Origin: Vineibacter terrae
Lineage (GTDB): Bacteria > Pseudomonadota > Alphaproteobacteria > Reyranellales > Reyranellaceae
DNA length: 64,000 bases
Reading direction: 5' to 3'
Assembly: GCF_008039615.1 (NCBI RefSeq)
Contig: NZ_VDUZ01000021.1
Location: 1-64,000 of the forward strand
The translations under genes and the position numbers were made by a program. Of this stretch, positions 53,859 through 63,030 are shown piece by piece (the stretch's first letter is position 1; each line of letters begins with the position of its first letter). The notes beneath the pieces are model-generated. The model was not told the origin of the DNA and did no database searches. It was given only the letters and a program-made list of their open reading frames with translations.

Positions 53859-54608
53859 TCAGCCGTCCCAGACATCACGCGGCATGGGCAGCTTGGCGAA
53901 GTCGCCGTCGACCAGCGGGCGGTGATGGTCCACGCCCTCCAGCTCCAGCAGCATCATCCATTGCCGCACGTGCTGGCCGGCATGCCAGGTCGTCCGCTCA
54001 AGCAGCTCGTGCAGGCTTTGCGGCCCATAGTAGGTGCTCAGCACCCGGGTGGCCGTGGTGTCGCCGGACGCCCACCAATCACGGAAGCGCCGGCGCACGT
54101 CCTCACCATAGGCCACGAGGGAAGCGGTGCCGGCATCGGCCGCGGGCTCCTCGCGGAAGCTGGCCTGCTCCAGCGTCGCCCCATCGCCGGCATCGAGGAA
54201 CGCAACCACGACTCGGAAAAGATGGAAGCCGAGCGCGCGGTAGCTGCGCGGCCGCCCCGGGACATGGATGCCAAGCCGGTCGTGCGGCATCAGCGGCAGC
54301 AGCTCCAGCGCCGCCGTCAGGAACTTGTCGAGCCGCGCGTGCAGCTCGGCTGTCGAAAGCGCTGGTCCGCCGGCTTCGTCAAGGCCCAGGAACGCGATGA
54401 TCTGCGGCAGGCTCTGGCCGAAGACAAAGGCATCGCCGCGCGACAGCACCGGGATCGAGCGCGCGCCCAGCCGCTCCAGCTCGGCGCGGCCGGCCGGATC
54501 CTCAAGCACGTTCACCGATACGAATTCGATCTCACGGATCGATAGAAACTCCTTGAGCCTCAGACAGCTGGTTCAACCAGGCTGCCAGAAGACCTTCAAC
54601 GGCAGCAT
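53859..54608 (-). CDS. Glutaredoxin-DinB fusion with in-frame UGA at the redox Cys (probable selenoprotein)
   Basis: Read from the ATG at 54608, which has GGAGGA four bases upstream, the protein begins MLPLKVFWQPG, then a TGA codon (54573-54575), then TSCLRLKEFLSIREIEF and continues open to 53859 (250 codons in all). Relatives carry WxPGCTSCxxxKEFL here, so TGA replaces the first Cys of CxxC, giving U12-T-S-C15. The N-terminal 75 residues form a glutaredoxin-like fold (ARSIPVLSRGDAFVFGQ holds the cis-Pro loop). From about 90 to the end is a DinB-like four-helix domain (HLFRVVVAF, LHELLERTTWHAGQHVRQWMMLLE). Both sides of the TGA are intact and in one frame. Alternatives are a nonsense mutation or translation only from an internal GTG at 54515. 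Confidence 0.68.
54526..54542 (-). promoter_or_regulatory. Candidate bacterial SECIS hairpin
   Basis: In the mRNA, UCGAUC and GAUCGA form a perfect 6-bp stem around the 5-base loop CGUGA. The stem begins 30 bases after the UGA codon, so the loop is 36 bases away. A G in the first two loop positions and this distance fit my recollection of the bacterial SECIS consensus, near its upper distance limit. Confidence 0.45.
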
Positions 54609-54929
54609 GCGTTCCTCCATGGGCAGCGATAAAGCCTATCGTACGCTCCTGCTCCGGGCAGCGCCATCCGATGAGACCGGAACCGTCGAGCATCGGCGCT
54701 CTTACAGGAGCCGCGATGGTGCGCATCCTTGTCGCCTGGGACGCAGCAAGGTGGGCGCGCAGAAGTCCGCCCGGCCTTCCAGCCGCGCTGGCCGCACCTC
54801 AGGCGCATTGAACAACTGCGTTGGGGTGCTGGCCTGCGGTCAACGCCTCGTTCACAGCATGGCACACTCGTTCGTCGGCTGGCGAGCGATCCGCGCGCGG
54901 ACGGTGGGCGCCGCATTCTAACGCTTTCA
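54609..54929. other. Intergenic stretch without a recognised gene
   Basis: About 320 bases between the glutaredoxin-DinB start and the promoter region of the GntR gene. Short frames on both strands show no motif, signal peptide or good ribosome-binding site. It should hold the promoter of the minus-strand gene. GC content falls toward its right end. Confidence 0.5.
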
Positions 54930-62940: not shown

Positions 62941-62978
62941 GCCGGGTAGGTGGGGACGTTTCCGCCCCCACCCCCCAC

Positions 62979-63013
62979 AGATCCGGACGTGCAGAATTAC
63001 CGCATCCGGTTCT
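62979..63013 (-). ncRNA. Group II intron domain V
   Basis: About 34 bases: a lower stem GAACCGGA/UCCGGAUC (one mismatch), a two-base CG bulge, and an upper stem UGCGG/CUGCA with loop UAAUU. This is the invariant catalytic hairpin of group II introns, placed 18 bases after the reverse transcriptase stop. Confidence 0.85.
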
Positions 63014-63030
63014 TCGCGCTGGAGCTTCGC

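Follow-up and report, generated by a model that had tools for sequence, protein, structure and literature searches.

A probable selenoprotein gene for a glutaredoxin-DinB fusion protein in Vineibacter terrae and its relatives

The 2026 catalogue of selenoproteins comprises 119 families and subfamilies, in whose naming a generic selenoprotein glutaredoxin appears (PMC13188914). This entry (PF00462, motif UxxC) shares with the protein reported here the glutaredoxin fold and, as we propose, selenocysteine (Sec) at the first redox position. The known selenoprotein glutaredoxins are described there as small oxidoreductases of a limited number of bacteria, whereas our protein has an additional DinB/YfiT domain. 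For BstA-H of B. subtilis, three conserved histidines and an EDTA-sensitive thiol transferase activity have been reported (PMC5815605).

The gene studied here lies on contig NZ_VDUZ01000021.1 of Vineibacter terrae, of which 64,000 nucleotides (the window, i.e. the whole stretch of DNA analyzed) were available. Although seemingly broken, it very probably encodes, to judge from sequence comparisons, an intact protein with selenocysteine in its redox site.

Reading frame and domains of the predicted protein

The gene is defined by the following features.

53859..54608, minus strand: probable selenoprotein gene, glutaredoxin-DinB fusion (frame and translation; homologues over the full length)
54573..54575, minus strand: TGA inside the frame at codon 12 (motif PG-U-TSC), the proposed site of selenocysteine (105 distinct sequences have TGA here and 11 have TGC or TGT)
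54613..54618, minus strand: GGAGGA, possible ribosome-binding site (read directly; four bases 5' of the ATG)

Positions 54608..53859 form a single frame of 250 codons including the stop, which starts with ATG, harbors the TGA at codon 12 and ends with another TGA. Direct reading of the frame bore out an earlier note on this DNA, according to which it is broken solely by the TGA at 54573-54575; no other internal stop was present, and the predicted product comprises 249 residues with Sec at position 12 in the context FWQPG-U-TSC. The GGAGGA mentioned in the same note was found at 54618-54613, four bases before the ATG, and the proposed location of the TGA at the first Cys of a CxxC motif agrees with the Cys residing there in Cys homologues. 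An ordinary ORF list yields only a 218-aa part of the gene, beginning at the GTG at 54515, and routine annotation is therefore likely to truncate it.

Two domains and three conserved histidines were assigned to the product.

54378..54605, minus strand: glutaredoxin domain, about residues 2-77 (PF00462 with 37 bits, cut-off 22.9; fold matches 3zit, Z 13.6, and 7c10, Z 12.2)
53910..54362, minus strand: DinB/YfiT-fold domain, about residues 83-233 (fold match 6iz2, Z 15.2; PF12867 in relatives)
54222..54224, minus strand: invariant His129, proposed metal ligand (H128 of A1, 34/34)
53982..53984, minus strand: invariant His209, proposed metal ligand (H208 of A1, 34/34)
53970..53972, minus strand: invariant His213, proposed metal ligand, HxxxH with His209 (H212 of A1, 34/34)

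The structure was predicted with a pLDDT of 94.5 and a pTM of 0.90. A glutaredoxin of the UxxC type, as suggested by the earlier note, was corroborated by the PF00462 score of the window protein (37 bits versus the cut-off of 22.9), and all 34 aligned relatives matched this family at E <= 0.001. The DinB-like domain was likewise recovered, albeit by its fold: the match to 6iz2 (Z 15.2, rmsd 2.4, 142 residues aligned) is a four-helix bundle, and matches to YfiT (Z 13.8), mycothiol maleylpyruvate isomerase (13.9), mycothiol S-transferase (12.9) and S. aureus BstA (9.9) were also obtained, scores that have to be read with the fact in mind that helical bundles often score high by chance in fold matching. 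Of the nine best C-terminal rows, five have DinB or YfiT in their titles; the remaining four, which we take to be members of the same superfamily, are putative metal-dependent hydrolases, a metal-binding protein and maleylpyruvate isomerase. With 18.1 bits the window protein itself remained below the cut-off of DinB_2 (PF12867, 24.8), which was matched by 27 of the 34 aligned relatives at E <= 0.001.

Invariant in all 34 rows of alignment A1, whose numbering is one less than the count from Met1, are W7, C11 (the Sec position), S13, C14, H128, H208, H212 and 12 other positions. Alignments A1 (34 rows) and A2 (23 rows) were hand-picked for diversity from 57 loci (L017-L073).

Our best explanation as a whole, a selenoprotein gene with SECIS-directed insertion of Sec at codon 12, the product of which combines a Sec-glutaredoxin with a DinB/YfiT domain, appears highly likely. 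SelB and Sec-tRNA would decode the UGA of codon 12 as selenocysteine under the direction of a hairpin that lies 36 nt further on in the coding sequence. The product would consist of an N-terminal glutaredoxin with the redox site U-T-S-C, followed by a four-helix bundle of the DinB/YfiT type whose three invariant histidines conform to a pattern described for metal-dependent bacterial thiol transferases. The DinB domain might use a metal-activated low-molecular-weight thiol, probably glutathione, on a small electrophilic or catabolic substrate, whereupon the Sec-glutaredoxin domain might reduce or remove the mixed disulfide or thiol adduct so formed; Sec could make this step faster and less prone to over-oxidation. 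Such a two-step mechanism, in which a Sec glutaredoxin serves a metal-dependent thiol-transferase domain with glutathione as the thiol, is a tentative proposal that we place just short of an even chance.

A plain thiol-disulfide reductase (glutaredoxin or NrdH-like), whose DinB domain only binds the substrate, dimerises or senses metal, is a distinct possibility, though not one that we favor. As this reading expects, the glutaredoxin part is similar to NrdH and to dithiol glutaredoxins; against it stands the conservation of the other domain, whose histidines and WHxxQHxRQ region belong to the best-conserved parts of the protein, six positions from 204 to 215 of A1 being invariant.

The family could also have been counted before, within the Sec glutaredoxin or Grx-like families of the Sargasso Sea and GOS reads. 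The Sargasso set (PMC1088965) contained ten Sec glutaredoxins and GOS (PMC2398784) 42 Grx-like UxxC selenoproteins, and short reads could hide a second domain, so that the metagenomic glutaredoxin selenoproteins of 2005 and 2008 might include fragments of the glutaredoxin-DinB family. On the other hand, DinB does not occur in the main text of either paper or of the 2026 catalogue, and the fusion is absent from the 119-family table of the latter (PMC13188914). A literature search by title and start of the abstract, mostly of papers outside subscription, disclosed no glutaredoxin-DinB selenoprotein. That the family had already been counted is rather unlikely.

Much less probable is a true start downstream of the TGA, at the GTG at 54515 where the 218-aa ORF begins, with the upstream part untranslated: the codons before and just after the TGA specify a glutaredoxin's conserved first strand and active site, and a plasmid search (13 hits) provided four fetched Cys homologues, each annotated as one gene spanning both domains.

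TGA and Cys forms and the selenocysteine machinery

The two-part glutaredoxin-DinB protein is found in many alphaproteobacteria. Pooling of the loci from all (overlapping) sets resulted in 116 distinct gene sequences, 105 of which contain TGA at the codon and 11 TGC or TGT. Among 101 genomes searched (the own genome and relatives), 57 gave a match and 55 of these harbored a copy with one TGA. Within the window's family such a copy was present in 54 of 61 genomes, the call being the search's count of one TGA where a family genome had no fetched locus; in one genome (G052) the gene is divided between two contigs. The TGA codon was read directly in all 30 top family loci. A class-wide sample of 385 genomes yielded 32 with a match at E <= 1e-8, and 19 of these 32 have TGA. 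The 57 fetched loci of both sets split into 46 with TGA and 11 with TGC or TGT. In the phylum-wide sample of 398 genomes, matches at E <= 1e-15 came from two, that of the window itself and another from its family.

From 506 confirmed matches on named genome contigs, the best 80 were taken; 79 included the N-terminus (L149 lacks it), all 79 with TGA. As these loci were ranked by likeness to the Sec form, they are biased to close relatives, and Cys forms are under-sampled. TGA carriers among these best 80 of 506 included Reyranella soli, R. aquatilis, Enhydrobacter aerosaccus strains, Desertibaculum subflavum, Acidisphaera sp. S103 and a few metagenome bins with beta-proteobacterial names.

In relatives the frames are open on both sides of the TGA. 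The check on homologues that the earlier note had called for revealed the expected alternation, i.e., TGA in an open frame in close relatives and Cys in more distant ones (11 homologue rows and the four plasmid homologues). A tree of the distinct sequences required at least two Sec/Cys changes (bootstrap 2-4), while the well-supported branches alone force one; the direction of change is unsafe because of long branches. To judge from its neighbors in this tree, the window probably belongs to Reyranellaceae. Two TGA-form genomes contain second, stop-free copies (G053:C372:1398-2141 and G364:C25:5256-6005, with 38% and 41% identity), and Sec and possibly Cys paralogues may thus coexist there. Two of the plasmid Cys homologues (L165, L166) reside on betaproteobacterial plasmids of Variovorax and Caballeronia and are annotated as glutaredoxin domain-containing proteins.

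The earlier note had also recommended a search for selA, selB, selC and selD. In the genome (8.76 Mb, 135 contigs) all of them were detected on one contig (C5) above curated cut-offs: selB (431 bits, cut-off 242) followed by tRNA-Sec (75 bits, over its cut-off; ARAGORN also calls tRNA-SeC, anticodon tca), selA (575 bits, cut-off 268) and selD (269 bits, cut-off 125). Together with a formate dehydrogenase gene that lies among them, they occupy about 16 kb (about 15.5-31.3 kb) of this contig. The alpha gene of the formate dehydrogenase likewise contains one internal TGA and reads V-U-H at the site.

Across the class sample selB was present in 54 of 385 genomes (over cut-off and E <= 1e-70): in 18 of the 19 TGA genomes, in three of 13 with a stop-free copy only (these 13 include G394 and G424, so classed by the search match alone), and in 33 of 353 without the gene. 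The difference between TGA and stop-free genomes gave a Fisher p of 4e-5, or 3e-4 without the window's family, values which serve as guides, the genomes being related. The single TGA genome of the class sample without detected selB (G072) is 77% complete. In the window's family 36 of 37 genomes checked contained selB, the exception (G033) being 89% complete. Four genomes (G002, G013, G016 and G027) have selB and gave no match to the glutaredoxin-DinB gene, which is therefore not universal.

Attempts were also made to find associated genes. In 13 stretches inspected by a GC3-based view, and with one gene tested, no neighbor common beyond the window's group was found; clustering of open segments over 79 loci was discarded because spurious frames were merged. 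The gene tested, of the glyoxalase family (PF00903), is located upstream, at most 2.5 kb away and in the same orientation, in 31 of the 34 loci from the window's group (L074-L111) that had enough flank and in none of the 35 loci of L112-L153, and none was noticed among the window ORFs viewed by eye; it is no general partner. The plasmid Cys homologues adjoin isochorismatase-family and amidase genes in Roseomonas and transporter and dehydrogenase genes in Variovorax, with regulators nearby in Caballeronia and mixed genes in Rhizobium. Both kinds of neighborhood would fit small-molecule catabolism or detoxification, which is suggestive only. Elsewhere in the window, 62941-63014 (minus strand) matched the Rfam group II catalytic intron with 40.3 bits versus a gathering score of 40.

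Codon conservation and the hairpin downstream of the TGA

Codon conservation was measured as synonymous codon identity in comparable pairs using 14-codon windows, with about 220 codons scanned in the first set and about 64 in the other two. Among 29 Sec rows of equal length from L017-L049 (all of the window's group but L049, which belongs to another family), codons 4-17 downstream of the TGA reached 0.955 versus 0.615 elsewhere, the best non-overlapping 14-codon window having 0.764. In 13 Sec rows from other families the best window covered codons 6-19 (0.77 versus 0.44). No such peak was present in the 11 Cys rows, whose best window starts before the codon (0.574 versus 0.454). The data indicate that in Sec forms, not in Cys forms, selection acts at the RNA level just downstream of the TGA. 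Together, the conserved TGA in 105 distinct sequences and the frozen codons behind it are far beyond chance.

Within this region the following structure was recognized.

54526..54542, minus strand: apical hairpin of a putative SECIS, 6-bp stem, loop CGUGA, 36 nt after the UGA (compensatory changes; conservation in Sec segments)

The perfect 6-bp stem (54542-54537 paired with 54531-54526) and the loop CGUGA (54536-54532), 36 bases from UGA to loop, were confirmed as the earlier note had given them, and the spacing, which the note had placed in the range of bacterial SECIS elements, lies within the published 16-37 nt. The other published criteria are a loop of 3-9 nt, a stem of 4-16 bp and a G in the first two loop positions (PMC13188914), and the hairpin agrees with them in loop, stem, position of the G and spacing. 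The same paper sets an energy cut-off, a minimum free energy at or below -7.5 kcal/mol, which the local hairpin of the window (-6.3 kcal/mol) falls short of and 77 of 96 distinct Sec relatives reach, though the folded length behind the published value may differ.

A 61-nt segment of the window folded no better than its shuffles (z 0.63), and random synonymous recoding retained all six pairs in 4,800 of 20,000 cases. The hairpin of the window alone is weak evidence and not significant. Since z-scores of single-sequence folding were only 0.63 to -1.44 across the six sequences folded, conservation was used as evidence for a SECIS. All six pairs were found in 91 of 96 distinct Sec segments, five pairs in two and three pairs in three; the loop begins with CGUG in 93 of them. 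By comparison, none of 15 Cys segments possessed five or more pairs. In the 23-row alignment A2, 95.2% of the hairpin cells are paired versus at most 61.3% when the hairpin is slid. Three of its pairs, with nine cells, are changed on both sides, a number of pairs as high as which was reached by five of 500 shuffles. The covariation score (0.228 versus 0.159 shuffled and at most 0.091 slid) lies above all 500 shuffles and all slides, in a type of test that is inflated by the relatedness of the rows. Further pair types in the hairpin were not unusual (106 of 500 shuffles as high).

Three loci outside A1 and A2 (L138, L143 and L147) lack the common hairpin and exhibit instead an 8-bp hairpin with the loop GUU 23 nt after the UGA, that is 13 nt closer. 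In these genes the SECIS may have shifted to another place in the coding sequence without any change in the position of the Sec codon.

Two further structures are not claimed. An extra hairpin proposed by RNAalifold (columns 8-28) is unpaired in three to five of the 23 rows at three of its six pairs. An outer helix (columns 25-27 with 52-54) has 98.6% of its cells paired but little pair variation, and is unstable in the window sequence (-2.5 versus -6.3 kcal/mol without it).

Which residue is inserted cannot be revealed by sequence alone, and UGA might be decoded by suppression as another amino acid, Cys or Trp. This is very improbable: UGA also terminates the glutaredoxin-DinB gene and is thus not globally reassigned, carriage of TGA tracks selB, and the hairpin was found only in TGA forms. 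That residue 12 is selenocysteine we accordingly rate, on these comparisons, as close to certain. The earlier note's main rival, a pseudogene in which a Cys codon as present in distant homologues was mutated to TGA, giving a truncated protein, is excluded for practical purposes by the conservation of the TGA in 105 distinct sequences across families, the frames open on both sides of it and the frozen codons after it.

Comparison with known systems

If true, this reading adds a family of selenoproteins whose combination of domains is missing from the 2026 catalogue, and it ties selenium to the DinB/YfiT thiol transferases. The Sec machinery of a sizeable alphaproteobacterial group would gain a selenoprotein besides formate dehydrogenase, and Sec and Cys versions of one two-domain protein would offer a natural comparison of the benefit of selenium. 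A more far-reaching view comprises a new selenoenzyme class, a single-chain thiol-transfer machine whose Sec site and three-histidine metal site share one glutathione-linked substrate, and, as a separate matter, the relocation of the SECIS in three Sec genes; it seems possible but doubtful.

The UXX-star and HUGP/GUXX-star families of NCBIfam resemble the window protein in being glutaredoxin-like (seleno)proteins. Their models matched it over residues 6-62 only and far below the cut-offs, with 27 of 66 bits for NF041212, 20.2 of 100 for NF041211 and 16.9 of 97 for NF047338 (UXX-star), and 11.8 of 325 for NF045501 (HUGP/GUXX-star). No NCBIfam model reached its cut-off with the window protein, and the other 33 aligned relatives matched only generic glutaredoxin-type and UXX-star-type models.

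Glutathione S-transferases have a thioredoxin-fold N-terminus and a helical C-terminus. The same layout links our protein to the glutathione S-transferase-like selenoprotein (PF13409) of the catalogue (PMC13188914), from which it differs: PF13409 was not matched at E <= 1, and the C-terminus is a DinB bundle. Foldseek rows of glutathione S-transferases gave an rmsd of over 10 to the window protein.

The closest likeness of the C-terminal part is to the STL (DinB/YfiT) thiol S-transferases, i.e., BstA-H, mycothiol S-transferase and mycothiol maleylpyruvate isomerase, with which it shares the four-helix bundle and three conserved histidines. By pattern rather than superposition, H128, H208 and H212 (A1 numbering) would be equivalent to H67, H160 and H164 of BstA (PMC5815605). 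What sets the window protein apart from these enzymes is the fusion of the bundle to a glutaredoxin that probably contains selenocysteine.
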